DNA from: an uncultured Prevotellaceae bacterium
GTDB taxonomy: Bacteria; Bacteroidota; Bacteroidia; Bacteroidales; Bacteroidaceae
Length of the DNA stretch: 55,312 bases
Assembly: GCA_902785695.1 (NCBI GenBank)
Contig: CACZZQ010000013.1
Coordinates: 1-55,312 of the forward strand
Reading direction: 5' to 3'
Within the stretch, counting starts at the first letter, position 1. The number at the start of each line of letters is the position of its first letter. The notes beneath the pieces were generated by a model, which saw nothing but the letters and a program-made list of their open reading frames with translations, ran no database searches and was not told where the DNA came from. Made by a program: the position numbers and the translations under genes. This document shows, in pieces, positions 10,490-33,199 of the stretch.

Positions 10490-11605
10490 TTATTTGTAGA
10501 AGTTCTTCTCGAAAGCCGTAAACTCGTCTTGCTTCAAGATGCAACGCTTCCACCACGATACAATGAAGCCTAAGCCATAGCCCATCAACTGCGTAAAGGC
10601 AGCGGGGATAGAGAGCAATCCCACCCAGAGACTGCGGTTGCGAATGCTGGAGTCAATGCAGATGACTGAACAATAGAAGAGTAGGGGCAACGATGCCAGA
10701 ACACAGAATACGAAGCCCACGCCCTGATGCATGTTGTCTGTGGGACGTAGATTGAAGGCATCAAGCAATTCGCCTTCGATGTAGAGGCCTGCTCCTAATG
10801 CGAACAAAAGAATACAGCCGATAACGCCCAGCGTAAAGATGGTGGGAAGCAGGTGGACAAGTTTCAATGTTCCTGGGTGACGCTTCTCAAGGTTGATGCG
10901 GGCGATACCGCTATTATATACCTGACGGAAGAACTTACGGAAGTCAGTGCGACGCTTATGCCACACCCAAGCCTCAGGGATGAGTGCTGTCTTATAGCCA
11001 GCCTCGATGATGCGATAAGAGAAGTCGATGTCCTCGCCAAAGCGCATCTTGGTAAAGCCTCCCAGTTCTTGATAGACCTCACGACGGATGCCCATATTAT
11101 AAGAACGTGGGAAGAACTTGTCGAGAGCCCCCCTCACTCCCCCCGACTTGGGGGAAGAACCACCACGAATGCCACCTGTGGTAAAGAACGAGGTCATGCT
11201 ATAGGAGATGGCCTTTTGAATAGGCGTGAAAGATGGGTGCGAGGCATCGGGACCGCCGAAGGCATCAGTCTTAAGTGAAGAGTGAAGAGTGAAGAGTGAA
11301 GAATTGATGGCTGTGAGGTAGCCTTCGGGCAATACCACATCGGAGTCAAGTACGATGAGCCAATCGCCCTTGGCACGCTCGGCACCATAGTTGCGACTCT
11401 GTCCTGGGCCGCTATTGTCTTTGAAGTAATAATGTAAATCAAGGATGCCTGCGTACTTGTCGCAGACATCCTTGCATGGTTTCTTCGATCCGTCTTCTAC
11501 AATGATAACCTCGAAATCCTTTGCCTCTTGATGGCAGAGGCTTTCTAACAGTTCATCGACCTCATCAGGACGATTGAAGACAGGAACGATAATGGAATAT
11601 TTCAT
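10490..11605 (-). CDS. Family 2 glycosyltransferase with two repeat-derived insertions
   Basis: The 371-residue enzyme has a GT-A fold. The N-terminus MKYSIIVPVFNRPDEV is typical of GT2, the D-S-D metal-binding motif occurs in VLDSDVVLP, and the acceptor block is FGEDIDFSYR. Two or three membrane helices lie at the C-terminus. Two stretches look foreign: [12 protein letters not shown] after residue 107, encoded by a period-7 array (11271-11304), and RGGSSPKSGGVRGA near residue 155, encoded by a C-rich palindromic repeat (11126-11161). Both are in frame and the enzyme remains open. The acceptor sugar is unknown. It ends 2 nt before the start region of efp-proximal DNA and is probably cotranscribed with efp upstream of it. 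Confidence 0.88.
   Translation of the reverse strand: MKYSIIVPVFNRPDEVDELLESLCHQEAKDFEVIIVEDGSKKPCKDVCDKYAGILDLHYYFKDNSGPGQSRNYGAERAKGDWLIVLDSDVVLPEGYLTAINSSLFTLHSSLKTDAFGGPDASHPSFTPIQKAISYSMTSFFTTGGIRGGSSPKSGGVRGALDKFFPRSYNMGIRREVYQELGGFTKMRFGEDIDFSYRIIEAGYKTALIPEAWVWHKRRTDFRKFFRQVYNSGIARINLEKRHPGTLKLVHLLPTIFTLGVIGCILLFALGAGLYIEGELLDAFNLRPTDNMHQGVGFVFCVLASLPLLFYCSVICIDSSIRNRSLWVGLLSIPAAFTQLMGYGLGFIVSWWKRCILKQDEFTAFEKNFYK
11126..11161. repeat. C-rich palindromic repeat inserted in the glycosyltransferase gene
   Basis: The segment has a pyrimidine-rich arm (AGCCCCCCTCACTCC) followed by a short palindrome CCCCCGACTTGGGGG. A similar design appears in argF' (24854-24882) and, with CCCTCCCT arms, around the acyl-CoA synthetase start (30986-31109). 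In frame it encodes a Gly/Ser/Arg-rich loop. Confidence 0.6.
11271..11304. repeat. Period-7 GTGAAGA array inside the glycosyltransferase gene
   Basis: Four tandem copies of the 7-mer GTGAAGA follow TTAA. Read on the minus strand, the array translates in frame to [11 protein letters not shown]. Confidence 0.85.
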
Positions 11606-11607
11606 TC

Positions 11608-12174
11608 TTATTCCTTTGCGCGAGCCAGATAAGAACCGTCGCGGGTGTCAACCTGAATCAGGTCGCCCTCGTTGATGAACAGGGGAACGCGAACCTCAAC
11701 ACCAGTCTCCAGAGTAGCGGGCTTCAGGGTGTTGGTAGCGGTGTCACCCTTGATGCCGGGCTCAGAGTGAGTAACGCGCAGGATGGTCTTCACGGGCATC
11801 TCAGCATAGAGGATGGTACCATCAGTGGTGTCAGAAACAACCTCCACGATGTCGCTCTCCTTCATGTACTCGTGACCGATTACCAAGTCGTTGTCGATGG
11901 GAATCTGCTCGAAGGTCTCCTGATTCATGAAGATACGACCGTTCTGGTCCTCGTACAGATACTGGTAGGGGCGACGCTCGATGACAACGTCCTCCAGCTT
12001 TTCACCGATGTTGAAACGACGCTCCAGCACGCGGCCATCGCTAACATTTTTCAACTTGATGATCATGATGGTGTTACCTTTACCTGGCTTGCGATGCTGG
12101 AAATCGATGCAAACCCAAATGGCGCCGTCCATGCGTACGGCAACGCCTTTCTTAATGTCTTGTGAGTTAATCAT
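11608..12174 (-). CDS. efp: Elongation factor P
   Basis: The protein has 188 residues, the normal length for EF-P, with three beta-domains. The N-terminal domain loop reads HRKPGKGNTIM; the Lys within PGKG occupies the position that is modified in many bacteria to help ribosomes through polyproline runs. The C-terminal domain (VRVPLFINEGDLIQVDTRDG) is typical. A -7 box TACCTTTG on the minus strand (12213-12220) gives a leader of about 30 nt. The glycosyltransferase gene follows after 2 nt. Confidence 0.95.
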   Translation of the reverse strand: MINSQDIKKGVAVRMDGAIWVCIDFQHRKPGKGNTIMIIKLKNVSDGRVLERRFNIGEKLEDVVIERRPYQYLYEDQNGRIFMNQETFEQIPIDNDLVIGHEYMKESDIVEVVSDTTDGTILYAEMPVKTILRVTHSEPGIKGDTATNTLKPATLETGVEVRVPLFINEGDLIQVDTRDGSYLARAKE

Positions 12175-12212
12175 ATAAATATATAAAAGATGTATTTTGT
12201 TATTTTCGGGTG

Positions 12213-12220
12213 CAAAGGTA
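12213..12220 (-). promoter_or_regulatory. -7 box of efp
   Basis: The minus strand reads TACCTTTG, matching TAnnTTTG, about 40 nt upstream of the efp ATG. Confidence 0.6.
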
Positions 12221-12225
12221 CGAAA

Positions 12226-12258
12226 TAATTCTTAATTCTTAATTCATAATTCATAATT
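12226..12258. repeat. Period-7 array (AATTCTT / AATTCAT) upstream of rpmH
   Basis: The stretch reads as ATTCTTA, ATTCTTA, ATTCATA, ATTCATA. It lies between the divergent efp and rpmH promoters, like the array at 9845-9886. Confidence 0.6.
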
Positions 12259-12270
12259 TTTTGAGAAAAA

Positions 12271-12302
12271 CTTGTGTAATTAAAAAGAAATGTGTAATTT
12301 TG
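12271..12302 (+). promoter_or_regulatory. Promoter of rpmH
   Basis: CTTG at 12271-12274 and TAATTTTG at 12295-12302 are separated by 20 nt, matching the Bacteroidetes primary sigma consensus. The leader to the rpmH ATG is about 65 nt. Confidence 0.65.
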
Positions 12303-12371
12303 CAGCCCGAAATATGGTGTACTGCCATGTTTAATAGGTGAATAACAATAAAATAAACAAATAATAAAGCA

Positions 12372-12527
12372 ATGAAAAGAACATTTCAGCCGCACAATCG
12401 CCGCCGCGTGAACAAGCATGGTTTCCGCGAGCGTATGGCCACTAAGAACGGCCGTCGCGTATTGGCTTCTCGCCGTGCTAAGGGCCGCAAGAAGTTGACC
12501 GTATCAGACGAGCACCACGGAAAGTAA
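12372..12527 (+). CDS. rpmH: Ribosomal protein L34
   Basis: A 51-residue, highly basic protein, [20 protein letters not shown] onward, with the invariant L34 N-terminus and [14 protein letters not shown]. It belongs to the large ribosomal subunit. Its own promoter lies upstream and a terminator downstream (12552-12593), so it is a single-gene unit here rather than part of the rpmH-rnpA cluster seen in many bacteria. Confidence 0.96.
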
Positions 12528-12551
12528 ACCATTCCTTGGAACATGAGCGAT

Positions 12552-12593
12552 AAACGGGATGAAGCATCAGACTTCACCCCGTTTGTTCTTTTA
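12552..12593 (+). terminator. Terminator of rpmH
   Basis: AAACGGG (12552-12558) pairs with CCCGTTT (12578-12584). The stem continues after one mismatch with TGAAG/CTTCA. A T-rich tail (GTTCTTTTATT) follows. Confidence 0.75.
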
Positions 12594-12615
12594 TTGGATA
12601 TTTTCAACAAAAACC

Positions 12616-12646
12616 TTTGTGGGGTGAGATATTTTTCGTAACTTTG
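12616..12646 (+). promoter_or_regulatory. Full promoter of the PASTA-rluA-ddl operon
   Basis: TTTG at 12616-12619 and TAACTTTG at 12639-12646 are spaced by exactly 19 nt, a near-ideal Bacteroidetes promoter. A second TAACTTTG lies closer to the gene at 12721-12728 and may be an additional start. Confidence 0.75.
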
Positions 12647-12756
12647 CGAAAAATATCGCGAAGTTACTCCGTCTCGGCAAAAAAAAGAATAAATTCTTTT
12701 GTTTTGCTCTCGACTTTTCGTAACTTTGCCAACAAAACAGAGAAAGTTAGTTTTGT

Positions 12757-13443
12757 ATGGATGATAATAATATTCTGAAATCCGCAGCAAAAAAGAAAGC
12801 GAAGACTGCAGGGGGATGTTCCACATGGATTTTCCACTTGGCGGCTATGGTAGTGGCCGTCGTCGTGTTGTTCTTTGGAGTAAAATGGTGGTTGGATTAC
12901 TATACGCATCAAGGTGAAGGTATCGAGGTGCCCGATCTTTATGGCATGACTCATCAGGAGGCACTTCATAAACTGGATTCTGTGGGTCTTTTGGTGATAG
13001 CCAATGACTCGTCGTATGTGGAAGGTCTGCCAGCCGGTGCTATCATACAGCAGAATCCAGGAACTGGCATGAAGGTGAAGAGTGGTAGGGTAATCTATGT
13101 GACCATCAACTCGCTGACAATGCCGTGTGAGAAGATTCCCGACCTGATAGACAACTGCAGCTACCGTGAGGCCGAGGCGCGCCTGAAATCGCTTGGATTC
13201 ACATTGCTGTCGCCTAAGATGATTGACGGTGAGAAAGACTGGGTCTATGGTATCCAGTATCGTGGACGTAACCTGGTGAATGGCGATGCTGTTCCCATTG
13301 GTTCGGAACTGACCTTGATTATTGGCAACAATGGTACGAGCGAGGAATTGGACTTGGAGGAACTGGGTGAAGGGGAGACTGAAGGAAGCAACGGTGAAAT
13401 CTCTGCCGACGATATTGACGATTTCTTGGAGGTGCTTGAATGA
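12757..13443 (+). CDS. PASTA domain membrane protein
   Basis: The 228-residue protein has a short basic cytoplasmic head (residues 1-22), one membrane helix (about 24-46, FHLAAMVVAVVVLFFGVKWW) and two or three PASTA domains outside (IEVPDLYGMTHQEALHKL and PDLIDNCSYREAEARLKSLG, each with the following LPAGAIIQQNPGTGMKVKSG-type strand). The C-terminus is acidic. PASTA domains bind peptidoglycan fragments or muropeptides. Unlike PknB-type proteins there is no kinase. It overlaps the rluA-family gene by 4 nt and lies upstream of ddl, consistent with a cell-wall-related operon. Confidence 0.88.
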   Translation: MDDNNILKSAAKKKAKTAGGCSTWIFHLAAMVVAVVVLFFGVKWWLDYYTHQGEGIEVPDLYGMTHQEALHKLDSVGLLVIANDSSYVEGLPAGAIIQQNPGTGMKVKSGRVIYVTINSLTMPCEKIPDLIDNCSYREAEARLKSLGFTLLSPKMIDGEKDWVYGIQYRGRNLVNGDAVPIGSELTLIIGNNGTSEELDLEELGEGETEGSNGEISADDIDDFLEVLE

Positions 13444-14534: not shown

Positions 14535-14543
14535 TCATACACT

Positions 14544-15533: not shown

Positions 15534-15535
15534 AA

Positions 15536-15575
15536 AATTGAGAATTGAGAGTTGAGAATTGAGAATTATGATTAG
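15536..15575. repeat. Left arm of a perfect 40-bp inverted repeat (period-7)
   Basis: The arm is itself a period-7 array (AATTGAG, AATTGAG, AGTTGAG, AATTGAG, AATTATG, ATTAG). It is the exact reverse complement of 15974-16013 over all 40 nt, and identity ends at both edges. Confidence 0.95.
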
Positions 15576-15616
15576 TTCTGCTCTTTGAGATGCTGCCAAG
15601 GAAAGAAAATGTCATA

Positions 15617-15958: not shown

Positions 15959-17160
15959 TGTCAATGGAAAAGTCTAATCATAATTCTCAATTCTCAACTC
16001 TCAATTCTCAATTGGACGAATTTAACGAGATTCGTCCCTATGAGCCTGAGGAGATGAATCAGGCATTCAACGACTTGTTGAACGACCGCCAGTTTAGTCT
16101 TATCATGAAGGGATTTGCGCCCTGGCTGCCTAAATTCCTTCGTAATGGTTTGCTGCGCCTGGCTTTCATCGGAGTGAAATCCCCCCTTGACTTCCAGAAG
16201 CGGTTTATGAAGCCTGTGGTGAACTACATCATCCGCAAGCATACGGATGGATGCACGTTCGATGACTCTCAACTTCCTGCGGATAAGCAAGTTCCTCGCT
16301 ATACTTTTGTAAGCAATCATCGTGACATCGTGCTCGACTCTGCCTTTCTGGATCTGCTGCTGTTCAAGAACGGTTATCCCACAACGGTGGAGATTGGCAT
16401 TGGAGACAACCTGTTGATCTATCCTTGGATCAAGCGTCTGGTGAGGATGAATAAAGCCTTTACCGTGCGTCGCGGCCTGACGGCTCACGAGATGTTTGAG
16501 AGCAGTCAGTTGATGAGCCGCTATATCCATTTCGCTGTGACAAAGAAGCGTGAAAATATCTGGATAGCGCAGCGTGAAGGACGTGCCAAAGACTCTGATG
16601 ACCGTACGCAGGAGTCGGTATTGAAGATGATGGCTATGGGTGGTGACTTGAAGGAACTGAATATCGTTCCCTTGACTATCAGCTATGAGTTCGACCCCTG
16701 TGACTACTTGAAGGCACAGGAGTTCCAACAGAAACGTGACAACCCCGCTTTCAAGAAGAGCAAGCAGGACGACCTCGACAATATGAAGACCGGTATCTTC
16801 GGTTACAAAGGACGCGTCAGATACCATTGCGGCACGCCCATCAACCTGTGGATAGAAGAACTTCGCGAGTTGCCAAAGAATGAGTTCTTCGCTCAGTTGG
16901 CAAAGCGTATGGACCAGGAGATTCATCGAGGCTATACGCTCTATCCTTGCAATTACATTGCCTTGGATGAATTGAATGGCAACGCAGAACAGAGCAGTCA
17001 CTATACCGCAGCTGACCGTCAGCGGTTTGAGTCATATCTGAAGGGACAATTGGCAAAGATAAAACTGCCAAATAAGGATGAGGCATTCTTGCGTCATAAG
17101 ATGTTGGAAATGTATGCCAATCCCGCTATCAATAAGGGTAAAGCGGATAGTGAAGAGTGA
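15958..17160 (+). CDS. 1-acyl-glycerol-3-phosphate acyltransferase-like (PlsC family)
   Basis: About 400 residues from the ATG at 15958 (an alternative start is 15964). The acyltransferase block I reads FVSNHRDIVLDSAFL near residue 117, and later blocks include RRGLTAHEMFESS and IWIAQREGRAKDSDDRTQES, the glycerol-phosphate/acyl binding part of PlsC-type enzymes. It is larger than ordinary PlsC (about 240), as in the group of longer Bacteroidetes homologues. Residues 5-19 are encoded by the 40-bp repeat arm and are unlikely to be ancestral. The last codons overlap another period-7 repeat (17149-17175). A role in phospholipid synthesis is inferred from the family. Confidence 0.82.
   Translation: MSMEKSNHNSQFSTLNSQLDEFNEIRPYEPEEMNQAFNDLLNDRQFSLIMKGFAPWLPKFLRNGLLRLAFIGVKSPLDFQKRFMKPVVNYIIRKHTDGCTFDDSQLPADKQVPRYTFVSNHRDIVLDSAFLDLLLFKNGYPTTVEIGIGDNLLIYPWIKRLVRMNKAFTVRRGLTAHEMFESSQLMSRYIHFAVTKKRENIWIAQREGRAKDSDDRTQESVLKMMAMGGDLKELNIVPLTISYEFDPCDYLKAQEFQQKRDNPAFKKSKQDDLDNMKTGIFGYKGRVRYHCGTPINLWIEELRELPKNEFFAQLAKRMDQEIHRGYTLYPCNYIALDELNGNAEQSSHYTAADRQRFESYLKGQLAKIKLPNKDEAFLRHKMLEMYANPAINKGKADSEE
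15974..16013. repeat. Right arm of the perfect 40-bp inverted repeat
   Basis: Exact reverse complement of 15536-15575. It lies within the first codons of the acyltransferase gene and encodes SNHNSQFSTLNSQL in frame, so this enzyme's N-terminus is repeat-derived. Confidence 0.95.
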
Positions 17161-17175
17161 AAAATTTGCTGCCGC
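17149..17175. repeat. GTGAAGA-type repeat with TTTGCTGCCGC tail
   Basis: AGTGAAGAGTGAAAAATTTG followed by CTGCCGC spans the acyltransferase stop codon and the leader of the next gene. The same head-tail design recurs at 19369-19410, 23711-23756, 26612-26658, 30435-30478 and 33162-33199. Confidence 0.75.
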
Positions 17176-17842: not shown

Positions 17843-19364
17843 TACCGAACAAAAGACATGGACTACTGCTGAACTGAGCATCTACTGGCGTGCCGACCGC
17901 CATCAGGAGTACCACAGTATAGAGTTTGAACGGCCTCGTGAGGACAACCCGGAGCCGCAATATCCCGTTGTGGTGGGCGGGGTGCTTTCAGATACTCGTT
18001 TGCCGCAGAGCAATTCGTGGCGACATCTCTTTAGCCGTGTCGTTGTGAAAGCCTTCGACGAACATACGCTGACGGTGAAGTACGGAAATTATGAAATCAC
18101 AGTTCGACCTGGCGAACCCTCGGTTAAACTGGACGAGAACGGCATGGACTATACGAGTTTTGAGCTGTATCTTGGTGTTTTTCATGCGAAGCCAGAGAAT
18201 GCAAGTCTGACGGTGACCCATGACGAGCAATTCCTGCGTCGCTTCCGTACCAAGGAACGCATCATGCGACTGAAAGAAGAAGATGTGGAACTGCTACGGA
18301 AAATGAGCGAAAAGGAAGACCTCTTTGCAGCATATGGCTTGGGGCGTTGGCTGTATTATAACGCACCCACCGGCACCGCCATGCGCGAAGCCGAGCAACT
18401 GTTCCTCTCGACAAAGAAATATATACCCGATGCACTGGCAGCCTATGCGCTGATGTGGCGTTATGGTGAAACGAAGGAAAACATCATGGACCTCGATGAG
18501 TGTCAGAAACTGCTCAAAGCCGCTCTGAAGCGAGGCAGTGAGCGGGCTGCCCAGCAGTTTGCACGCCGACGCATCTATGGTATGTTCTGTGAGCCAGAAC
18601 CAGAGAAGGTCGCACAAGAGATAGAGCAACGCTTGAATGAGTCGGAAGACGTAGATCCTATGTGGTACTCGCTGCTGGCATATGCCTATGAACAGATGGG
18701 CAGAAATGATGATGCCATCAAGCAATATGAACTGTCTACTGCCAAGGGACAGTTGGATGACTATTATTATATGGCTTACCTCTACAAACAACGTGGCAAC
18801 GTAGCCCTACATGACAGTCTGATGGAGAAAGGTATCCTGGAGGGCAGTGGACTCTGTTGTATTTTCGGAGCCGATATGGATGAAGAGGAATTTAAACAAC
18901 TCTCCAACTATCAAGGAAGACGGCATCACGAGGAGGTTGCAGCTAATCTGCACATCGGATTGAATCGTGGCGAAGGGTGGTGTGCTTACTACCTCTGGTA
19001 TCTTACCTACTACGCTCAATTGGCCTTCCATGGAGGTGAAGCTGAATGGTCTGCCTATCTGAAACGGGGTGTTCAGCTGGGACATACTACTTGCTTGATG
19101 AAGGTTGCCGAACTGGCCGAAAACGGTGAGTGGCCAGAGAAAATGAGTCCTTACGATATCGGCGAGTTATGGCTTCGGGCAGCCCGCTATAGTTCTGGTG
19201 ACGAGGATGCATTGCGTGGTTTGCATCGTGTCAACGATCCGGCCTTCTTGTTGCGACACAAGAGGGAGTTGGAGACGTTTTGGATTCCTAAATATAATGA
19301 GGTGATAGGAGAACCGGAAACGACCCAGGACGATGATGACGGACGGTTTGACGCGTGGGCGTGA
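17835..19364 (+). CDS. Sel1/TPR-like repeat protein of unknown function
   Basis: The 509-residue protein has no signal peptide. Residues 1-130 are beta-rich and include YGNYEITVRPGEPSVKLDEN. From about 150 onward there are helical repeats of the Sel1/TPR kind: FAAYGLGRWLYYNAPTGTAM, DALAAYALMWRYGETKEN, MWYSLLAYAYEQMGRNDDAI, DDYYYMAYLYKQRGNVALHD, and TTCLMKVAELAENGEW. Such repeats bind partner proteins. It overlaps the lipoprotein gene upstream and is followed by three further accessory genes on the same strand. A cytoplasmic scaffold or an immunity-type role is possible but unproven. Confidence 0.6.
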   Translation: MNDTEQKTWTTAELSIYWRADRHQEYHSIEFERPREDNPEPQYPVVVGGVLSDTRLPQSNSWRHLFSRVVVKAFDEHTLTVKYGNYEITVRPGEPSVKLDENGMDYTSFELYLGVFHAKPENASLTVTHDEQFLRRFRTKERIMRLKEEDVELLRKMSEKEDLFAAYGLGRWLYYNAPTGTAMREAEQLFLSTKKYIPDALAAYALMWRYGETKENIMDLDECQKLLKAALKRGSERAAQQFARRRIYGMFCEPEPEKVAQEIEQRLNESEDVDPMWYSLLAYAYEQMGRNDDAIKQYELSTAKGQLDDYYYMAYLYKQRGNVALHDSLMEKGILEGSGLCCIFGADMDEEEFKQLSNYQGRRHHEEVAANLHIGLNRGEGWCAYYLWYLTYYAQLAFHGGEAEWSAYLKRGVQLGHTTCLMKVAELAENGEWPEKMSPYDIGELWLRAARYSSGDEDALRGLHRVNDPAFLLRHKRELETFWIPKYNEVIGEPETTQDDDDGRFDAWA

Positions 19365-19368
19365 GGAA

Positions 19369-19410
19369 AGTGAAGAGTGAAAAAGTGAAAGGTGAATAAT
19401 TTGCTACCGC
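19369..19410. repeat. Period-7 GTGAAGA-type repeat with TTTGCTACCGC tail
   Basis: Units AGTGAAG, AGTGAAA, AAGTGAA, AGGTGAA are followed by TAATTTGCTACCGC. The repeat fills the gap between two genes and ends 1 nt before the ATG at 19412, so it also provides the leader and ribosome-binding region. Confidence 0.75.
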
Positions 19411-19411
19411 T

Positions 19412-20005
19412 ATGGACAATAAGAAGAGAGCCGAAAGGATCATTAAGAATGTGGAGCAGATGCGCGAGAACTCACAGGAGATGAGGATGTGGAAAAACAT
19501 CCCGTTGGCCAAGGAGTGCGTACAACTGCTCAAAGACCTTGATGACCCAGAGGAGACACCAATGGGTAAGGCATTGGCCTGCGAGGCCATCATCCAGCAG
19601 TTGCCGGAATATGATGTGCCGCGACTGGTGCTGAGCATCCTTCACTATAAACTGCAACTGGTGAAGGAGTCAGACGAGCATGACTCAGAGCGTTATCCCA
19701 CCGAGGAAGAGGTTGTCAACGACATCCAGCGTCTGTCGGACTATATAGACACAGAGCACGTCAGCAGCGAGTGGTTCCGCAAACTCTATCACCGCCATCT
19801 GGAGTCTGACCCTATTCAGCGTACGCCAAAGTGGGAAGAGAACTACTACGAAGTGGAAAAGGAGTGCGACCGACGGTTGGGCGACACGCCTCGCGGCATG
19901 GGCTTCTGCTTCGGCTATTGGAGCACGTTGCGTCAGGTATTGGCAGAACGAGGCATCATGTGGCGCTCGCCCTCAGAACTGAATCCCAGAGTAATGTTTG
20001 ACTAA
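19412..20005 (+). CDS. Hypothetical protein, helical, accessory cluster
   Basis: The 197-residue soluble protein is rich in charged helices (RIIKNVEQMRENSQEMRMWK, VVNDIQRLSDYIDTEHVSSE). The C-terminal part has CFGYWSTLRQVLAERGIMWR and ends in LNPRVMFD. I do not recognise the family with certainty. It sits between the Sel1-like and MORN-like genes with short spacing on both sides, so it probably belongs to the same transcription unit. Confidence 0.7.
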   Translation: MDNKKRAERIIKNVEQMRENSQEMRMWKNIPLAKECVQLLKDLDDPEETPMGKALACEAIIQQLPEYDVPRLVLSILHYKLQLVKESDEHDSERYPTEEEVVNDIQRLSDYIDTEHVSSEWFRKLYHRHLESDPIQRTPKWEENYYEVEKECDRRLGDTPRGMGFCFGYWSTLRQVLAERGIMWRSPSELNPRVMFD

Positions 20006-23311: not shown

Positions 23312-24334
23312 TTATTTACTCTTAGTGACTACATACGATAATCCCATCGATAGTAGCAGGGTGCCAAAGATGAAGACCAGAGACCAGATAGTCGGTACTT
23401 CGATATGAGGCATATTCAGGTCGAAGCCCAGCCATGCGGCTCCGGCGTTGATGTATTCGTTCATGGCTAAAAGCATCTTGACACCTACAAAGATGAGGAT
23501 GATGCCCAGCCCGTATTTCAGATAAGTGAAGTATTTTGCCACAGCTGCCAGTGCAAAATAAAGTGCACGCAGGCCTAAGATGGCAAAGATGTTAGAAGTG
23601 AGCACGATGAATGGGTCACGGCTCACAGAGAAGACGGCAGGGATAGAGTCTACGGCAAAGGCCACATCGGTGGTCTCAATGACAAGTAGGGTGATGAAAA
23701 GAGGCGTTGCTTTAAGTGAAGAGTGAAGAGTGAAGAGTGAAGAGTTTGCTTCCGCACTTGTTTCTTTCACAAAGAACTTTTCACCATGCATCTGGTCGGT
23801 CACAGGGAAGAACTTCTTGAATAGCTTGACGATAAAGTTCTGCGACGGATCACTTTGCTGTTCATCGCTATGCCCAAACATCTTTCCGCCCGTGTAGAGC
23901 AGGAACAGACCGAATAGTCCTAATATCCATTCGAACTGCTCCACCATCGCTGCGCCAGCAAAGATAAAGATGCTGCGGAGCACCAAGGCACCAAAGATGC
24001 CCCAGAACAATACTTCGTGCTGGTATTTCCGATCTACACCAAAGAACGAGAAGAGCATCAGGAATACAAAGAGGTTATCCATCGAGAGCGATTTCTCGAT
24101 GAGATAGCCAGCAAGGAATTCCATTGCTTTTTCATGAGGTTCAACGGGGTAGAGCAGATAGATGCCAGCACAGAAGATGAGTGATACGCCTATCCAGACG
24201 CCAGTCATCTTCAGCGCTTCCTTGATGCTGACCTCATGTTCGCCTTTCTTGCCGAACATTTTCAGGTCGGCAATCAGCATGATAAATACTAAGACGTAGA
24301 ACAGGATCCACGCCCAGAAAGGTAATATGTCCAT
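23312..24334 (-). CDS. TerC family integral membrane protein with repeat-derived loop
   Basis: The 340-residue polytopic protein is of the TerC/Alx type. Family blocks are EKSLSMDNLFVFLMLFSFFG and IETTDVAFAVDSIPAVFSVS, the acidic membrane motifs associated with metal (Mn or similar) export. The cytoplasmic loop between helices carries [16 protein letters not shown], encoded by a complete period-7 element (23711-23756) that is absent from normal TerC proteins. The frame is intact and the insertion lies outside the conserved helices, so function may be kept. Confidence 0.88.
   Translation of the reverse strand: MDILPFWAWILFYVLVFIMLIADLKMFGKKGEHEVSIKEALKMTGVWIGVSLIFCAGIYLLYPVEPHEKAMEFLAGYLIEKSLSMDNLFVFLMLFSFFGVDRKYQHEVLFWGIFGALVLRSIFIFAGAAMVEQFEWILGLFGLFLLYTGGKMFGHSDEQQSDPSQNFIVKLFKKFFPVTDQMHGEKFFVKETSAEANSSLFTLHSSLKATPLFITLLVIETTDVAFAVDSIPAVFSVSRDPFIVLTSNIFAILGLRALYFALAAVAKYFTYLKYGLGIILIFVGVKMLLAMNEYINAGAAWLGFDLNMPHIEVPTIWSLVFIFGTLLLSMGLSYVVTKSK
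23711..23756. repeat. Period-7 GTGAAGA element inside the terC-like gene
   Basis: TTTAA, four GTGAAGA-type 7-mers and the tail TTTGCTTCCGCA. On the minus strand it is translated as [14 protein letters not shown]. Confidence 0.85.
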
Positions 24335-24335
24335 G

Positions 24336-24370
24336 TTTTAATGCTTAATGCTCAATGCTTAATGCTTAAT
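24336..24370. repeat. Period-7 array (AATGCTT) between argF' and terC
   Basis: Units AATGCTT, AATGCTC, AATGCTT, AATGCTT, then AATTGAT. It occupies most of the gap between the two minus-strand genes. Confidence 0.65.
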
Positions 24371-25401: not shown

Positions 25402-26604
25402 TTAGGGTCTTATCTGTCCTTCGCCCTCAATCAGCCATTTGTAGGTGCATATCTCTTCGAGGGCCATGGGACCGCGAGGACCTAACTTCTGTGTAGAGAT
25501 ACCAATCTCTGCACCAAGACCGAACTGGGCACCATCGGTAAATGATGTGGGCGCATTCCAATAGACGCAGGCCGCATCGACATGGGCTTGGAACTTGCGG
25601 GCAGCTGCTTCATTCTCGGTGACGATGGCCTCGCTATGTCCGCTACCGTGTTGGTCGATATGATTGAGAGCCTCCTCCAGTGAGTTGACGGTCACGACAT
25701 TCATCTTGTAGTCCATAAATTCTGTGTCGTAGTGACTCTCATCGTTGAAGAAGAACTCCACCTTTCCTTTCATTGGCGCCAGCAATTCGTCCAGTTCACC
25801 CTCCCTGTCTTTGTGGACGAGCAGTGTGTCGAGCGCATTGCATACACTGACGCGGCGGGTCTTGGCATTATTGATGATGGCTTTTCCTTTCTCCAAGTCA
25901 CCATCTTTATCGAAATAGATATGCACCACGCCGGCACCTGTTTCGATGACGGGGATGCGGGCAGTGTTGCGTACGAAGTCGATGAGCTTGCGTCCGCCAC
26001 GAGGAATGCAGAGGTCTACATATCCTACGGCATTCAGCATCTCGCCTGTGGCCTCATGGGTGGCAGGCAGCAGTGCTACAACATCTTTAAGTGAAGAGTG
26101 AAGAGTGAAGAGTGAAGAATATTTTTCCAGCACTTCATGGATAATGGCCACCTCCTCGCGATTAGAACAGTCGGCATCCTTACCGCCTTTCAGCACGCAG
26201 GCATTACCGCTTTTGAAACAAAGCGAGAAGACGTCGAAGGTTACGTTAGGGCGAGCCTCGTAGATCATTCCGATGACACCGAAAGGTACGCTCACACGAC
26301 TAAGACGAAGTCCGTTAGGCAGCGTCTTCTGCTTGGTGATATGGCCAAGTGGCGAGGGCAGGGTGGCTACGTTACGCATATCGCTGGCTATACCTTCCAA
26401 CCGGCTGTCGGTCAGTTGCAATCGGTCGTAGAGCGGATTCGACTTATCCATCTTGGCTAAGTCTTCAGCGTTAGCTTTCAGGATTCTCTCCTTCTGACTG
26501 ATAATAGCATCTGCCACAGCATTCAGTATCTCGTTACGCTGTGTGTCGCTGAGCAATGCCAGACTCTTGCTGGCACGCTTTACCTTTTCAAATATCTCTT
26601 TCAT
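25402..26604 (-). CDS. proA: Gamma-glutamyl phosphate reductase
   Basis: The 400-residue NADPH-dependent enzyme reduces glutamyl-5-phosphate to the semialdehyde in proline synthesis. Recognisable blocks are [51 protein letters not shown] with the catalytic Cys, and [20 protein letters not shown] near the C-terminus. [11 protein letters not shown] after residue 161 is encoded by a period-7 array and is not part of normal ProA. It follows proB by 24 nt and precedes argF'. Confidence 0.94.
26086..26120. repeat. Period-7 GTGAAGA array inside proA
   Basis: CTTTAA and four 7-mers (GTGAAGA), ending in ATATT without the TTTGCTNCCGC tail. The in-frame minus-strand product is [13 protein letters not shown]. 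Confidence 0.85.
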
Positions 26605-26611: not shown

Positions 26612-26658
26612 ATGCGGAAGCAAATTTTTCACTTTTCACTCTTCACTTTTCCCTTAAA
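26612..26658. repeat. Period-7 element at the proB-proA junction
   Basis: TGCGGAAGCAAATTTTTCAC, then TTTTCACTCTTCACTTTTCC and CTTAA: the same element with the head first on the plus strand. It supplies the last codons of proB (KGKVKSEK) and most of the gap to proA. Confidence 0.75.
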
Positions 26659-27414
26659 CTCAGTATGCGGTGTTTGGTCTTTATTTTCAAAGAGGTCTAT
26701 CAGGATGTTTTCTCGCTTGCCATTGGCAATGATGACTCGGATACCTGCGGCCTGAATCTTAGAGGCAGTGGCATATTTCGACTGCATACCTCCACGACCT
26801 GCAGAGCTCTTCTCTGTCTGTATGTACTGCGACAGATCGGTACCTGGTTCCACCTCCTTTATTAGCTGTGACTGTGGGTCAGCAGGATTGCCGGTATAGA
26901 TGCCGTCGATGTTGGAGAGCAGAATGAGCGTGTCGGCCTGCATCATCTGGGCAATGAGCCCTGATAGTTCATCGTTATCGGTAAACATCAACTCAGTAAC
27001 GCTCACGGTGTCGTTCTCGTTCACGATGGGTAATACACCATTCTCAAGCATCACCCGCATACAGGCCTGCTGGTTGCGGTATTGTTCGCCAGGCTGGAAG
27101 TTCTCCTTCATGGTAAGTACCTGCCCTACGTGGATATGATATTCCCGGAAGAGGTCGTAATAAAGGCCGATGAGCTTGGCCTGACCCAGTGCGGAAAACA
27201 ACTGCCGCTGTTCCACTGAGTCCAGCTCATGCTCAATATCCAGTTCACGACGACCGCAAGCTACGGCACCCGATGATACAAGAATCACCTCGCACCCTTT
27301 GGTACGCAACCATGCTATCTGGTCTACCAGTGCCGACATACGTGTCACATCCAGTCGACCATCAGCACGTGTCAGTGCGTTTGAGCCAACCTTTACGACG
27401 ATTCTTCTTTCCAT
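26629..27414 (-). CDS. proB: Glutamate 5-kinase, short form
   Basis: The 261-residue amino-acid kinase catalyses the first step of proline synthesis. Motifs: MERRIVVKVGSNALTR at the ATP site, VILVSSGAVACGRRELD, NENDTVSVTELMFTDNDELS at the glutamate site, and RGGMQSKYATASKIQAAGI. The C-terminal PUA domain found in E. coli ProB is absent, as in many Bacteroidetes. The last residues (GKVKSEK) come from a repeat, replacing or extending the natural end. A divergent promoter dyad lies upstream. Confidence 0.93.
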   Translation of the reverse strand: MERRIVVKVGSNALTRADGRLDVTRMSALVDQIAWLRTKGCEVILVSSGAVACGRRELDIEHELDSVEQRQLFSALGQAKLIGLYYDLFREYHIHVGQVLTMKENFQPGEQYRNQQACMRVMLENGVLPIVNENDTVSVTELMFTDNDELSGLIAQMMQADTLILLSNIDGIYTGNPADPQSQLIKEVEPGTDLSQYIQTEKSSAGRGGMQSKYATASKIQAAGIRVIIANGKRENILIDLFENKDQTPHTEFKGKVKSEK

Positions 27415-28443: not shown

Positions 28444-28561
28444 TTCATTTTTCTATTTGTCCATGACGCTTTTAAATGCCCGCACAACCATTCATGTCTG
28501 TTTACGTCAGAATGGTCAAGAAAAATCTTCATATAATATAATGTGAACTAATGTAAGCAAT

Positions 28562-28732: not shown

Positions 28733-28734
28733 GA

Positions 28735-28763
28735 AGTGACCAGTTTTCTGACAGAAATCTGGT
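28735..28763. repeat. Hairpin just after the small peptide gene
   Basis: TGACCAG...CTGGTCA arms with inner TTTCTG/CAGAAA form a nearly complete palindrome of about 27 nt. It begins 2 nt after the peptide gene's stop codon and may act as a terminator. Its GACC...GGTC edges match the units of the following array. Confidence 0.55.
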
Positions 28764-28771
28764 CATCCGAT

Positions 28772-28947
28772 GACCAAGCATTGGTCACTGCATAACCAAG
28801 CATCGGTCACGGCATGACCAGGCATCGGTCACAGCATGACCAGGCATCGGTCACAGCATGACCAAGCATCGGTCACAGCATGACCAAGCATCGGTCTCTA
28901 CTTGACCATGCCGTGGTCTTTGCACGACCGCACCGTGGTCTCTGTCG
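28772..28947. repeat. 22-bp palindromic tandem array, eight units
   Basis: Eight head-to-tail units of exactly 22 nt. The central consensus is GACCAAGCATCGGTCACAGC plus AT. Every unit keeps GACC and GGTC (or AACC) spaced by 7 nt, so each is a small dyad. The first six units are closely similar and the last two diverge. Confidence 0.92.
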
Positions 28948-28949
28948 CA

Positions 28950-29195
28950 TTTTGTTGTTTTGCCTGCCGCGCCTACTTCCAGCTGAACGGACTCAAGGTG
29001 GGTGACGCGAACAGCGGCGTGCGTGCCTTCAAGCTGAACTTCGGAGAAGGGGAGACGACGGAAATACAAACCACGAATTTCACGAATTACACGAATAAGG
29101 CTGGTGCGTGGTTTACGATTGACGGACGCAAACTCAGCGGGGAACCGACAACAAAGGGAATATACATCTTCAATGGTAAAAAGGTGAAGAAGTAA
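28950..29195 (+). pseudogene. C-terminal remnant of a secreted surface protein
   Basis: The frame lacks a sensible start and reads RAYFQLNGLKVGDANSGVRA, then FKLNFGEGETTEIQ, a repeat-derived TTNFTNYTNKAG, and the ending WFTIDGRKLSGEPTTKGIYI plus FNGKKVKK. The last block is the characteristic C-terminus of many Prevotella extracellular proteins. The body of the gene is missing, probably lost by deletion. The linker TTNFTNYTN is encoded by CACGAATTT-type 9-mers (29070-29098). A terminator follows. Confidence 0.7.
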
Positions 29196-29207
29196 GAAAG
29201 GTGAATT

Positions 29208-29244
29208 AAAAATGCCGATTTCCATCGAGGGAATCGGCATTTTT
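29208..29244. terminator. Bidirectional terminator
   Basis: AAAAATGCCGATT (29208-29220) pairs perfectly with AATCGGCATTTTT (29232-29244), with two further G-C pairs inside. It ends both the remnant on the plus strand and the acyl-CoA synthetase operon on the minus strand. Confidence 0.85.
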
Positions 29245-29289
29245 TTGCATCTATTTGAAATGATGCGTTGGCCAAAAATGGAGAGTTGG

Positions 29290-31053
29290 TTACTTGTTGG
29301 AGTCTTTCTGGCGGATTTCCACGCGGCGAATCTTTCCGCTGATGGTCTTGGGCAGCTCATCGACGAATTCGATGATACGAGGGTATTTGTAGGGGGCGGT
29401 CACCTTCTTGACGTGCTGCTGAAGTTCCTTTATAAGGTCATCGCCTGCCTTGTCCTTCCATTCCTTACCCAGTACCACGGTAGCCTTGACCACCATGCCG
29501 CGCACATCATCGGGTACACCTGTGATAGCACACTCCACAACGGCGGGGTGAGTCATCAAGGCTGATTCTACCTCGAACGGCCCGATGCGGTAGCCTGATG
29601 ACTTGATGACGTCATCGATACGACCCTCGAACCAGTAGTAACCGTCCTCATCGCGCCAAGCCATATCACCGGTGTGATAGATGCCGTCGTGCCAAGCCTC
29701 GCGGGTCTTTTCCTCGTCGCGATAGTAGCCCTTGAAGAGGCCCACGGGCTTCTTGTCGCCTACGCGGACCACAATTTCACCCTTCTCACCATCCTCGCAG
29801 GGGGTGCCGTCGGCACGCAGCAGGTCGATGTCGTATTGGGCATTGGGAATACCCATGCTGCCTGGTTTTGGTGTCATCCAAGGGAAGGTGCCAAGGGTCA
29901 TAGTGGTCTCCGTCTGTCCGAAGCCTTCCATGATGTTCAGGCCTATCAACTCCTTCAGCTTATCGAACACGGCAGGGTTCAGTGCCTCGCCGGCTGTGCA
30001 GCAGTACTGCAGTGACGATAGGTCGTACTTCGACAAGTCTTCGCGAATCATGAAACGATAGATGGTGGGAGGTGCACAGAACGAGGTCACCTTATATTTC
30101 TCCATCTGGCGCAGCAGCGTGTCGGCATTGAACTTCTCATGGTCGAACACGAAGACAGTTGCACCAGCAAACCACTGTCCGTAGAACTTGCCCCAAACGG
30201 CTTTACCCCAACCGGTATCTGCTACGGTGAGGTGCAGCGAACCCTCGTGCAGGTTGTGCCAGAACACGCCTGTGGTGAGGTGTCCCATTGCATAGAGGTA
30301 GTCGTGAGCCACCATCTTCGGCTCGCCGCTGGTACCGCTGGTGAAGTACATAATCATTGTGTCTTCGTTGTTGTTGACGAAGGCAGGACGAACGAACTTC
30401 GGTGCCTGCAGCCATTCTGCCTGCCAGTCATGGCAAAGTGAAGAATGAAGAGTGAAGAGTGAAGAATTTGCTGCCGCGTTGGTATGCTCACTCACAACGA
30501 TGACATTCTTCAGCGTCGAGCTTTCTGATATTGCTAAACCAATTTGTTCCGTGACGTAGGCATCGTCCACGCAGATGATAGCCTTCACAGAGGCACGTGT
30601 GTTACGATAGATAATGTCTTTCTTGGTGAGCATATGGGTGGCAGGAATCACGATGGCGCCAATCTTGCACAGGGCCAGCATGATGATCCACCACTCGTAG
30701 CGGCGCTTCAGAATGAGCATTACGGGGTCGCCCTTGCCGATGCCTAATGACTGCAGGTATGATGCGGCCTGGTCGCTCTGCTCTTTCAGTTGCTTGAAGG
30801 TGGCACGAATTTCTTCTCCCTGATCGTTTGTCCAGAGCAGTGCCAACTTTTCCGGAGCCTCTTCTGCCCAAGCATCCATCACGTCGTAAGCAAAGTTGAA
30901 GTGCTCGGGGATGATGAACTCCAGGTTCTTATTGTAATCCTCAACGGACTCGAAATGTGTCTGCTTTAAAAATCTATTCAGCAGACTCACCCCCTGCCCC
31001 TCCCTGTGAGGGAGGGGAGTAGATAGCGTCTGCTTTATCGTCTCTTTTTCCAT
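29290..31053 (-). CDS. AMP-forming acyl-CoA / acetyl-CoA synthetase
   Basis: The protein has 587 residues from the ATG at 31053, which has a GAG-type ribosome-binding site. An upstream in-frame ATG (31089) lies inside a repeat. Adenylate-forming motifs are TSGTSGEPKMVAHDY (P-loop), NIMEGFGQTETTMT, YHTGDMAWRDEDGYYWFEGR and GKIRR with the C-terminal catalytic Lys. It resembles medium-chain or acetyl-CoA ligases. Two insertions derive from repeats: STPLPHREGQGVSLL near residue 11 (C-rich palindrome) and [14 protein letters not shown] near residue 205 (period-7 element, 30435-30478). It ends the argD-proC-DKNYY-XRE operon. Confidence 0.88.
   Translation of the reverse strand: MEKETIKQTLSTPLPHREGQGVSLLNRFLKQTHFESVEDYNKNLEFIIPEHFNFAYDVMDAWAEEAPEKLALLWTNDQGEEIRATFKQLKEQSDQAASYLQSLGIGKGDPVMLILKRRYEWWIIMLALCKIGAIVIPATHMLTKKDIIYRNTRASVKAIICVDDAYVTEQIGLAISESSTLKNVIVVSEHTNAAANSSLFTLHSSLCHDWQAEWLQAPKFVRPAFVNNNEDTMIMYFTSGTSGEPKMVAHDYLYAMGHLTTGVFWHNLHEGSLHLTVADTGWGKAVWGKFYGQWFAGATVFVFDHEKFNADTLLRQMEKYKVTSFCAPPTIYRFMIREDLSKYDLSSLQYCCTAGEALNPAVFDKLKELIGLNIMEGFGQTETTMTLGTFPWMTPKPGSMGIPNAQYDIDLLRADGTPCEDGEKGEIVVRVGDKKPVGLFKGYYRDEEKTREAWHDGIYHTGDMAWRDEDGYYWFEGRIDDVIKSSGYRIGPFEVESALMTHPAVVECAITGVPDDVRGMVVKATVVLGKEWKDKAGDDLIKELQQHVKKVTAPYKYPRIIEFVDELPKTISGKIRRVEIRQKDSNK
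30435..30478. repeat. Period-7 GTGAAGA element inside the acyl-CoA synthetase gene
   Basis: AAAGTGAAGAATGAAGAGTG continues as further 7-mers and ends TTTGCTGCCGC. The minus-strand product in frame is [16 protein letters not shown]. Confidence 0.85.
30986..31017. repeat. C-rich inverted repeat, arm inside the synthetase gene
   Basis: The arm has its own CCCTCCCT/AGGGAGGG hairpin. It is the reverse complement of 31078-31109 with two mismatches in 32 nt. Confidence 0.85.
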
Positions 31054-31077
31054 TCTCTTTTTTATAAGGTAAATATT

Positions 31078-31109
31078 CCCCTCCCTCACAGGGAGGGGTT
31101 GGGGGTGAG
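31078..31109. repeat. C-rich inverted repeat, arm upstream of the synthetase start
   Basis: Partner of 30986-31017. The two arms enclose the start codon (31051-31053) and ribosome-binding site, so the mRNA could fold with the start in the loop. This arm also abuts the stop of the XRE/cupin gene (31114). Confidence 0.85.
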
Positions 31110-31113
31110 TCTT

Positions 31114-31671
31114 TTATTCCACTGTAAATGCTAAGAACTTCACGGCTTTGTCGCCAATAGCCAGCATACCGTGGGGCTTTGTGGCATCGAAATAGATGCT
31201 GTCGCCCTCTTCCAATACGATGGTCTTGCCACCGATGTAGAGTTCCATCTTACCTTCGAGCACCAGGTTGAACTCCTGTCCGGGGTGTGAGTTCTTGTAC
31301 ACCACTTGTGCCTCGGGCTTGGGCTCTACGGTAACGATGAACACGTCGGCCTTATGCCCCACGAAACCACCTACCAGACTCTGGTATTTATACGCTTTCG
31401 TACGCTCGATGCTCATGCCCTGTCCCTTACGTGTGACGTAGTACGACTTCATGTGGGGCGACTCAGCGAAGATCAGCTCTTCGGTAGAGACACCGTATTT
31501 ATGGGCTATCTTCATCAGGTTCGAAATGGTGATGTCCATCTCGCCTGCCTCTATCTTTTCATACTTCTCCGATGAAATGCCGATGGTGTCGGCCATTTCG
31601 CTGACAGGAATGTCGAGCACATCGCGCAGACCGCGCAGACGCTCACCTATCTGTTTCAGTTGTTCATCCAT
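31114..31671 (-). CDS. XRE-family regulator with C-terminal cupin
   Basis: The 185-residue protein starts at MDEQLKQIGERLRGLRDVLD. Residues 8-65 are an XRE-type helix-turn-helix (VSEMADTIGISSEKYEKIEA, then DITISNLMKIAHKYGVSTEE). Residues 110-185 form a cupin (HPGQEFNLVLEGKMELYIGG, then EEGDSIYFDATKPHGMLAIG). Such two-domain proteins sense small molecules and often control neighbouring metabolic genes. Here it lies directly upstream of the acyl-CoA synthetase, its likely target. In-frame codons upstream of 31671 overlap the DKNYY gene in another frame and are not used. Confidence 0.88.
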   Translation of the reverse strand: MDEQLKQIGERLRGLRDVLDIPVSEMADTIGISSEKYEKIEAGEMDITISNLMKIAHKYGVSTEELIFAESPHMKSYYVTRKGQGMSIERTKAYKYQSLVGGFVGHKADVFIVTVEPKPEAQVVYKNSHPGQEFNLVLEGKMELYIGGKTIVLEEGDSIYFDATKPHGMLAIGDKAVKFLAFTVE

Positions 31672-31684
31672 ACTTTTAAACTTA

Positions 31685-32353
31685 TTATATTCGTTCGCCA
31701 TTAAGAAACGAGCCATATTTGTCCACCCCTTCCTCTTCCTTGTCCAGATGGAACGAAGCGGCATCGGCATCCTCCACCAAGTTACCACAGTACCAGACGT
31801 GGCTCTTGTCCTTCGAATAGAGGCCAAGCACCTCGTAGGTGTTCGGGTCGGCATCGGGCAGGATTTCTTCCCGGTAGAACACGTGCCGGTCATCCTTGCC
31901 CTCAAGAAAGTCCAAGATACGGAACGTGGCAGGATTGGCATCCTTCACATGCAGGCTGTCGAAATAGACCGTCTGGCTGTCCTTTGCCCACATACGTATA
32001 TCGTCCAATTCGATGACCTCGAACGAGCGTATATCGGTGATATGCAGCGGTGCGCCTTTGTAGTAATAGTCGTTGGCATCGCAGAACAGCGGATAGTCCT
32101 TGGCCTTCACGGTAGCAGGGTCGGCACCGCTGACGAGTCTCTCCTTGAAATAGACGTGCGCCGCATCGCGCCCCAGCCAGTCCTCCACGCTCTCGAATGT
32201 CGCAGCATCGACCTCCGGCAATTCTTCAGAACGCTGTCCGAAGCTGAACGTCCAATAGGAATAGTACACCGTACCATCCCTTTCCTCATACTTTCCCTCG
32301 CTGCAGCCAGTGAGCAAAATAAGTAGAAAGACAAGACAACCTACGATCCTCAC
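31685..32353 (-). CDS. DKNYY-repeat lipoprotein
   Basis: The 222-residue protein has a lipoprotein signal (MRIVGCLVFLLILLTGCSEG; Cys17). The mature part consists of repeats in which a D-x-x-x-V-Y-F/W-x block follows DPATF- or DANPATF-like segments (DAAHVYFKERLVSGADPATV, DSQTVYFDSLHVKDANPATF, DDRHVFYREEILPDADPNTY, DKSHVWYCGNLVEDADAASF). This is the DKNYY family of unknown function, probably surface- or periplasm-exposed. It sits between proC and the XRE gene in the same operon. Confidence 0.82.
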   Translation of the reverse strand: MRIVGCLVFLLILLTGCSEGKYEERDGTVYYSYWTFSFGQRSEELPEVDAATFESVEDWLGRDAAHVYFKERLVSGADPATVKAKDYPLFCDANDYYYKGAPLHITDIRSFEVIELDDIRMWAKDSQTVYFDSLHVKDANPATFRILDFLEGKDDRHVFYREEILPDADPNTYEVLGLYSKDKSHVWYCGNLVEDADAASFHLDKEEEGVDKYGSFLNGERI

Positions 32354-32377
32354 CTTCTCACCTTTTAACTTTTTTAC

Positions 32378-33157
32378 TTACTTCGCTCCTGCCTTCAGAC
32401 CCCGGATGACGGCCGAGGTGAATCCGGCATGTTCCATTTCGTTCAGTCCCTTGATGGTCACGCCGCCAGGGGTGGTTACCAGGTCGATAGCTGCCTCAGG
32501 GTGCAATCCACTGGCTTCCAAGAGCTTCACGGCACCCAGCATGGTTTGCATCACAATCTCCTTGGCTTGGTCGGCCTTGAAGCCCAGTTCCACGCCGCCT
32601 TCGCTGGCAGCACGGACATAACGCATGGCGTAGGCAATGCCGCAAGAGGCGAGGGTGGTGCCTGCTGCCAGGTGTGCCTCGTCAGTAAACAAGGTATTTC
32701 CCATCGCATCGAATATTGCCTTCACCGTCTCCGTGTGTGACGGTTTTCCCGTCACAGAAACGAGGAACGTCATTGATGCCAGCTGAGCAATGGCGATGTT
32801 GGGGATGCAGAGGAAGAGTGGGGGACACTTTGCGCCCAGCCATTCCTGGATGCTTGCTGACTTCACGCCAGCGGCAATGACGATGAGAATCTGCTTCTCG
32901 GGGTTCAGACTCTCCTTGATGCCTGTCAGCACTTGCTCTACCAGCCAGGGCTTTACGCATACGATGACCACATCGGCCACGTTTGCAGCCTGTGCGTTGT
33001 CGGTCGTGGTGCTGATACCCTGCTCAACGAATTTCTTCAGAACGGCCTCCGAGGGGTCGCTCACGGTGATGTTCTTGTTGTCAAAGTAGTCGGCTTTCAT
33101 CATGCCTTCTACGGTGGCGCCACCCATAGCGCCTGCACCTATCATTGATATTTTCAT
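32378..33157 (-). CDS. proC: Pyrroline-5-carboxylate reductase
   Basis: The 259-residue enzyme catalyses the last step of proline synthesis. The dinucleotide site is MKISMIGAGAMGGATVEGMM, and the C-terminal signature is present (LGAVKLLEASGLHPEAAIDL, then VTTPGGVTIKGLNEME). The protein is of normal length. With proA and proB on the same side of the window all three proline genes are present. It follows argD by about 42 nt, a gap that contains a period-7 repeat. Confidence 0.93.
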   Translation of the reverse strand: MKISMIGAGAMGGATVEGMMKADYFDNKNITVSDPSEAVLKKFVEQGISTTTDNAQAANVADVVIVCVKPWLVEQVLTGIKESLNPEKQILIVIAAGVKSASIQEWLGAKCPPLFLCIPNIAIAQLASMTFLVSVTGKPSHTETVKAIFDAMGNTLFTDEAHLAAGTTLASCGIAYAMRYVRAASEGGVELGFKADQAKEIVMQTMLGAVKLLEASGLHPEAAIDLVTTPGGVTIKGLNEMEHAGFTSAVIRGLKAGAK

Positions 33158-33161
33158 ATTC

Positions 33162-33199
33162 TAAGGTAAAAGGTAAAAGTGAAAAATTGGCTTCCGCAC
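33162..33199. repeat. Period-7 element between argD and proC
   Basis: AAGGTAA, AAGGTAA, AAGTGAA and AAATTGG are followed by CTTCCGCA: a degenerate copy of the element with its tail. It fills the intergenic gap. Confidence 0.6.

Follow-up and report, generated by a model that had tools for sequence, protein, structure and literature searches.

A short DNA element, built from some four repeats of a 7-nt unit (GTGAAGA dominates in its own genome) and often followed by a fixed 11-nt tail, TTTGCTNCCGC, is dispersed through the genome of a rumen Prevotella, where some copies are translated in frame inside conserved enzymes. We followed it from a stretch of 55,312 nucleotides, here called the window, which is contig C13 (CACZZQ010000013.1) of an assembly of 2.48 Mb in 61 contigs that is 78% complete; the ProA encoded in the window shares 92% identity with ProA of Prevotella ruminicola KHT3. 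Copies lie throughout the genome and also in viral contigs, most orthologues examined lack the inserts, those within genes are read in frame and are biased in orientation and codon phase, and a single site may carry several different units. We take this, with a probability of roughly 0.6, to be a dispersed short-repeat family that is copied to new sites and then filtered by selection, and we infer that the arrays arise by copying and not by local slippage. The element is real, widespread in Prevotella and odd, but it is of a known general kind.

Unit, tail and copy number

Exact double units number 80 in the genome and exact tails 58, against three matches for each backward-read control pattern. 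An earlier note on this DNA had named eight places with GTGAAGA-type arrays, inferred a spreading element and proposed a genome-wide search and an alignment of orthologues; all eight places are real, and the search shows copies dispersed over the genome. Within the window, double units with up to two mismatches number 20, against a mean of 0.55 and a maximum of 2 in shuffles. A period-7 array, defined as 15 of 22 matching positions, precedes 40 of the 58 exact tails, and the remaining tails include degenerate arrays and chance matches such as those in L104, L106 and L116 (L numbers are our handles for stretches of sequence, G numbers for genomes and C numbers for contigs).

The window and 40 further stretches of its genome, picked around matches of two patterns, contain 38 runs of at least two exact GTGAAGA units: 15 with four units, 13 with two, nine with three and one with five, many of the shorter ones being extended by the near-units GTGAAAA and ATGAAGA. 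The two bases after the run are AT in 26, GT in 11 and AG in one, and the exact tail comes immediately next in 11. Tail and unit are separable, because one tail (L105) stands behind an AATTGAG array. The arrays are direct repeats rather than palindromes, and single copies consist of direct heptads and a tail without the terminal inverted repeats of a miniature inverted-repeat transposable element; inverted tail pairs about 20 nt apart occur at three places (L090, L097 and L120). Rfam at gathering scores gave no match in window positions 9000-35000.

The excess of period 7 is clear both in the window and in its relatives. Requiring 18 of 21 matches for every period, we found ten period-7 arrays in the window, two of period 8 and one of period 15 (periods 4-15 tested). 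The relatives' set, the best 80 of 382 related loci (1.41 Mb), bears titles of Prevotella, Prevotellaceae, Xylanibacter and a few Bacteroidales, with many loci from rumen metagenomes and others from isolates, among them a complete genome (L034). Here period 7 accounts for 117 arrays, period 8 for 26, a mild excess of its own, period 9 for 14 and every other period up to 13 for at most nine (periods 4-13); arrays of periods 14 and 21 mostly restate the same period-7 arrays. The 117 arrays represent 46 canonical units, which are slightly more alike within a genome than between genomes (p = 0.03 and 0.02; 101 of the 117 arrays, in 54 genomes, kept after dropping those less than 600 bp from another). 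TAACTGA, the published heptamer unit discussed below, is outside the 12 commonest units of either set. Twenty further Prevotella stretches (312 kb) gave 15 period-7 arrays, ten of them from one genome (L152), and 20 stretches of other families of the order (262 kb) gave one.

Copies read in frame inside conserved genes

Four arrays of the window lie on the + strand inside genes of the - strand. The family 2 glycosyltransferase gene (10490-11605; Pfam Glycos_transf_2) contains a tailless A(GTGAAGA)4AT at 11271-11304, whose four exact units (11275-11302) contribute to a 12-residue peptide. In the gene of the TerC family membrane protein (23312-24334; Pfam TerC), the copy at 23711-23756 has four exact units (23716-23743) and the tail TTTGCTTCCGC, exact from 23745, and encodes 15 residues. 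The proA gene (25402-26604), identified because its product matches gamma-glutamyl phosphate reductases of solved structure, its Pfam Aldedh match being weak, carries a tailless array at 26086-26120 with four exact units (26091-26118), encoding 11 residues where most relatives have YGVS. The AMP-binding acyl-CoA synthetase gene (29290-31089; Pfam AMP-binding) has, at 30435-30478, four units (30438-30465), one of them ATGAAGA, followed by the tail TTTGCTGCCGC, exact from 30467. All four are in frame, as the earlier note had said; its common 11-residue peptide stands in three of them, the fourth ending in LC, and the acyl-CoA synthetase copy, although translated as proposed, has to be read as a 15-residue peptide.

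The other four named copies lie between genes. At 17149-17175 (+) a short array and tail (17165) occupy a gene junction and provide the TGA stop of the upstream frame (17158-17160), with an ATG after the tail. Between a stop at 19364 and an ATG at 19412 the gap is filled by array and tail (exact, 19400) (19367-19411, +); a copy at 26612-26660 (-; exact tail 26614) lies upstream of the proA start in the sense direction; and an intergenic gap holds a degenerate array with the variant tail TTGGCTTCCGC (33162-33199, +). The tail that had been described as shared is therefore exact at five of the eight places (17165, 19400, 23745, 26614 and 30467), variant at 33162 and lacking at 11271 and 26086.

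Across the genome the in-gene hosts include TerC, the glycosyltransferase, the acyl-CoA synthetase, ProA, a formyltransferase, an epimerase, PurL with three arrays and a CbiJ-CbiD fusion with two; TerC, the AMP-binding protein, the glycosyltransferase, ProA, PurL and CbiJ-CbiD show in-frame insertion in conserved genes of the kind known from Rickettsia palindromic elements. Pfam domains span the inserts in TerC (domain at residues 75-289, insert at about 198), the AMP-binding protein (72-456, about 209) and an E1-E2 ATPase (168-346, about 304). The inserts may form surface loops and may be nearly neutral; for a loop there speaks only the gap at the ProA insert in the alignment with a solved ProA, a poor structure model having been set aside (mean predicted local distance difference test score, pLDDT, 54.2).

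Location, orientation and codon phase

It is a general property of a 7-nt unit that it runs through all three frames in 21 nt, and because of this the element can insert into genes with one of its strands remaining open. The 112 array rows from the genome's own stretches and the window, placed with crude calls of open reading frames (ORFs), divide into 41 inside ORFs, 39 sense and 15 antisense at co-directional junctions, eight at divergent and six at convergent junctions, and three at edges. Rows inside ORFs are antisense in 32 cases and sense in nine, of which two belong to a single array. The strand rule proposed in the earlier note thus stands as a tendency, because two sense copies lie inside conserved domains, one in a CobT-like protein (residue 118, domain 7-358) and one in a TMEM260-like protein (residue 121, domain 50-236), where variant units escape the stop. 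A stop-free strand is not a special property of these arrays: 68 of 90 own arrays have one, against 64.2 in composition shuffles.

Codon phase is one-sided in the own genome. Its GTGAAGA-type arrays fall 20:4:0 when a single open frame is required over 120 nt on each side, 31 arrays without an open frame being excluded. The twenty include at least one copy at a junction (window 26625). Among the four off-phase arrays, two lie at junctions (L094 and L125), L114 falls into the common register if its first near-unit is included, and L113 is a genuine exception. The common phase is also kept by tailless copies of the own genome, such as those in L089, L102 and L107 and in the window's ProA and glycosyltransferase genes, and tailless off-phase exceptions occur in viral stretches (L183 and L211).

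At junctions the preference for the sense strand (39 to 15) has p = 0.0015. An ATG followed by 40 open codons begins within 12 nt after nine of 40 array-borne tails, against 980 of 12,300 random places, and the box TANNTTTG, which we take to be the Bacteroidota -7 motif, lies within 15 nt of ten of 90 own arrays, against 114 of 16,400 random positions. In the relatives the corresponding figures are 7 of 117 and 182 of 32,000. Arrays with flanks like those of the window's ATAATTC-unit array beside a promoter-like TANNTTTG (12225-12258, strand not assigned) occur in L015, L022, L032, L060, L061, L076 and L081, with three units among them; the seven relatives' cases are not independent, because by their flanks they look like one orthologous promoter.

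One site in many species

The alignment of orthologues showed that most of those examined lack the inserts. At the first site in ProA most of 81 sequences read YGVS or similar, and six (the window, L011, L012, L031, L033 and L073) carry an insert, which takes six changes on a tree that is weakly supported at many forks. The inserts of L012 and L073 have decayed with the frame kept, through both silent and replacement codon changes, and that of L033 has an extra 14-codon insert within the array. This nested segment of L033 is 42 nt long, GC-rich and in frame (LRPSEQASPNVAER).

At a second ProA site ten of the 81 sequences carry arrays and the others read DGKYPYLE or similar; the carriers are scattered and require at least nine changes. 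Six have GTGAAGA or GTGTAGA forms, three GGTGAGA and one a decayed form, and the 180 nt downstream are mostly as in the nearest species. An eleventh carrier outside the set of 81, L237 (genome G034), has two consecutive arrays, both in frame, giving a 27-residue reading. When three units were counted in 20 genomes, the unit at the ProA sites agreed with the genome's stock with p = 0.0016 for the ten arrays picked first and p = 0.009 for all fifteen; taken with the stricter measure given below and the likeness of units within genomes, the evidence for genome-specific unit stocks is moderate. A different in-frame insert, TKGTVPFV, lies a few residues from the heptad site in L082; the loop at this site may be an insertion hotspot.

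Elsewhere, the glycosyltransferase site has other heptads in L032, L034, L060 and L081; ten aligned relatives have GTKRL or other loops at the TerC site; the acyl-CoA synthetase insert is also present in L027; and the unit of an array at the junction after proA varies between species.

Copies in viral contigs

IMG/VR holds 51 viral-contig stretches with three exact units, several of them from one contig, with runs of up to 18 units; the exact tail directly follows the run in 21. The array-bearing viruses probably infect rumen Prevotella. One viral array falls in the part of its gene that matches DarB-like antirestriction proteins. Another is in an ORF similar to the terminase large subunit and precedes the stretch of best match by about 20 residues; no PHROG match was obtained for three further proteins. 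A 41-nt query against phage and plasmid collections retrieved seven and two records, respectively, with 71-80% of the query matched, covering the array and leaving the tail unmatched; the seven are gut phages and the two plasmids are from Segatella hominis and Phocaeicola massiliensis. Two small viral-contig proteins of similar appearance (L175 5753-6085 and L184 3191-3568) have the heptad peptide at 58 and 60, and one of them has the tail.

Candidate movers

Three candidates were considered and rejected. The only Y1_Tnp match in the 78% complete genome, the signature of a transposase associated with repetitive extragenic palindromes (RAYT), lies in a 905-residue frame that also has cobalamin domains, and the repeat on its flanks is a palindrome, GGGAGCGCGGACGTC, rather than the heptad repeat; the next gene contains a heptad array, at a distance of about 0.9 kb. 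This frame (L122 6900-7860) joins the RAYT-like domain to CbiG and tetrapyrrole methylase, and the flanking GGGAGCGCGGACGTC palindromes are translated. The sole reverse transcriptase found, an RVT_1 protein (L245 853-2298) which we take to be retron-like by its motifs, is on contig C16, which has neither an exact double unit nor a tail. As for a VapE element as parent, the double unit in stretches of G042 and G045 belongs to the ends of that element; the genome's own contigs with VapE homologues (C5, C8 and C33) have no exact double unit. The element itself (L220-L233, from G045 and G042) is transposon-like, with GTGAAGAGTGAAGAG inverted ends, and occurs in forms of about 1.5 kb, with one VapE/DUF3874 gene in L220 and L229, and in gene-less forms of about 160-400 bp with internal inverted copies of the motif.

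Other repeats in the window

Together with the array at 12225, four further period-7 arrays of other units in the window were missing from the original list: AATTGAG at a gene junction (15536-15567, +) and in the opposite direction near a gene start (15982-16013, -), a GCATTAA-type array just upstream of the TerC start (24338-24370, -) and AAGAATT beside a GC-rich stretch (47799-47826, -). A 22-nt tandem repeat, ATGACCAAGCATCGGTCACAGC, runs for 5.8 copies with 93% matches at 28770-28896, and repeats of about 9 nt with CTAGT or ACTAGT stand at 8217, 51721 and 54921. Another type of translated repeat, CCCTCCCC/GGGGAGGG, occurs inside genes at window 29290-31089 and around position 8870 of L122, giving peptides such as TPLPHREGQGVS and SLGEGSGVGF.

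Discussion

We propose that new copies would be written into chromosomes and phages with the replacement of a few target bases, and that selection would then keep three kinds: copies at gene junctions, among which the sense direction prevails, copies beside promoters, and copies within genes that preserve the frame, which are for the most part antisense, share one codon phase and form an additional loop of the enzyme. Copies in proteins would later diverge by codon changes, pass between species and change their unit.

One alternative is slippage in place, in which any 7-mer expands by 7-nt slips of replication and nothing moves, a proposal of Mrazek and colleagues that is quoted in PMC4679880. 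It is also said there that among long repeats heptads form the commonest class in most of the genomes studied, and the prominence of period 7 with 46 units among 117 arrays fits this view, but slippage would not readily give a common tail and common boundaries at dozens of unrelated places, a single codon phase, or entire inserts that most orthologues examined lack, and we consider it rather unlikely. Less probable still is that the arrays are signals of translation or transcription selected at junctions and promoters, with genic copies as strays. The sense bias at junctions, the start codons soon after tails and the TANNTTTG boxes beside arrays all point this way, but those controls were random positions, not gene junctions, purging of harmful insertions would leave the same junction bias, 41 of 112 own rows lie inside ORFs, and at two places, one promoter and the junction after proA, different species have different units. 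That old arrays merely spread with their genes by recombination, with no present activity, seems scarcely credible as the whole account. It would explain the acyl-CoA synthetase insert common to the window and L027 and the allele shared upstream of ProA site 2, but not the different units on that allele, the tendency of the unit to match the host genome or the presence, at 15 separate places in one genome, of a run with exactly four identical units.

Several observations weigh against the copying of a dispersed family. A divergent upstream segment is shared by seven of the ten ProA site-2 carriers, and because of this part of the scatter is exchange of alleles; a separate insertion in every carrier is thereby weakened, and the unit has changed on the shared allele. 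No target duplication was seen at the two ProA sites, where residues are replaced and flanks have diverged, and no copying enzyme was found among the candidates examined (Y1_Tnp, RVT_1 and the VapE element). Exactly four exact units occur in only 15 of 38 own runs, and the stricter commonest-unit measure of agreement with genome stocks gives 9 of 15 (p = 0.14). Phase is less one-sided elsewhere, at 5:2:1 in the relatives' loci and 8:2:3 in viral stretches, and part of the bias is built in, because stops at the element's own ends (the TTAA head and the TTTGCTACCGC tail) close the other phases and leave only the common one stop-free, although these end-stops do not fully explain the phase of the own tailless copies. 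Counts in the own stretches are not a genome-wide sample, since the stretches were picked by pattern matches, and our comparisons are between species rather than between pairs of strains in which a new copy could be seen appearing.

If the dispersed family is still moving, core enzymes have in it a natural supply of new loops, and empty, fresh, doubled and decayed versions are seen at the same codon in different species. In this major rumen genus the element can also be a source of error in assembly, gene calling and protein alignment. The question that it raises is what does the copying of heptad arrays into chromosomes and into phages. By analogy, and as a speculation to which we give very little weight, a telomerase-like activity might add 7-nt repeats from a short template at breaks or junctions of Prevotella and its phages, with a genome-dependent unit, a length set by the activity and a tail arising from template read-through; in that case the loops in enzymes would keep a continuing record of that activity.

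Comparison with known repeats

Short, dispersed or translated repeats are known from several bacteria. The short tandemly repeated repetitive (STRR) sequences of cyanobacteria are, like the Prevotella element, tandem heptanucleotides, some of them translated, but the units as we know them differ, and to our knowledge STRR sequences have no TTTGCTNCCGC tail. Rickettsia palindromic elements are short in-frame inserts in genes as well, but they are longer and palindromic, whereas the Prevotella arrays are direct heptads. With repetitive extragenic palindromic elements and their RAYT the Prevotella element shares short, dispersed copies and, at three places, inverted tail pairs, but the only Y1_Tnp match of this genome is flanked by the different palindrome GGGAGCGCGGACGTC.

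The earlier note knew of no description of this repeat. Our literature searches brought up no paper on this element in Prevotella, but translated, orientation-filtered heptads have already been published: TAACTGA heptamer repeats occur in Beggiatoaceae, cyanobacteria and some Bacteroidetes (MacGregor 2015, PMC4679880) and have stops in all frames one way, are translated inside ORFs the other way and lie close to start codons. The two share short 7-nt arrays, translated reverse copies, forward copies with all-frame stops before start codons, a patchy distribution and an unknown mechanism. They differ in that one unit dominates among TAACTGA repeats and direct repeats of similar units are rare, whereas Prevotella has many units, several of them with one common tail; and genic TAACTGA copies are mostly in short hypothetical proteins or at protein ends (PMC4679880), whereas several Prevotella copies lie inside conserved enzyme domains, replace residues at fixed sites and vary in unit between species. 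Set beside these systems, the fixed tail, the many units, the replacement of residues inside conserved domains, the differences between species at the same site and the copies in viral contigs look new.

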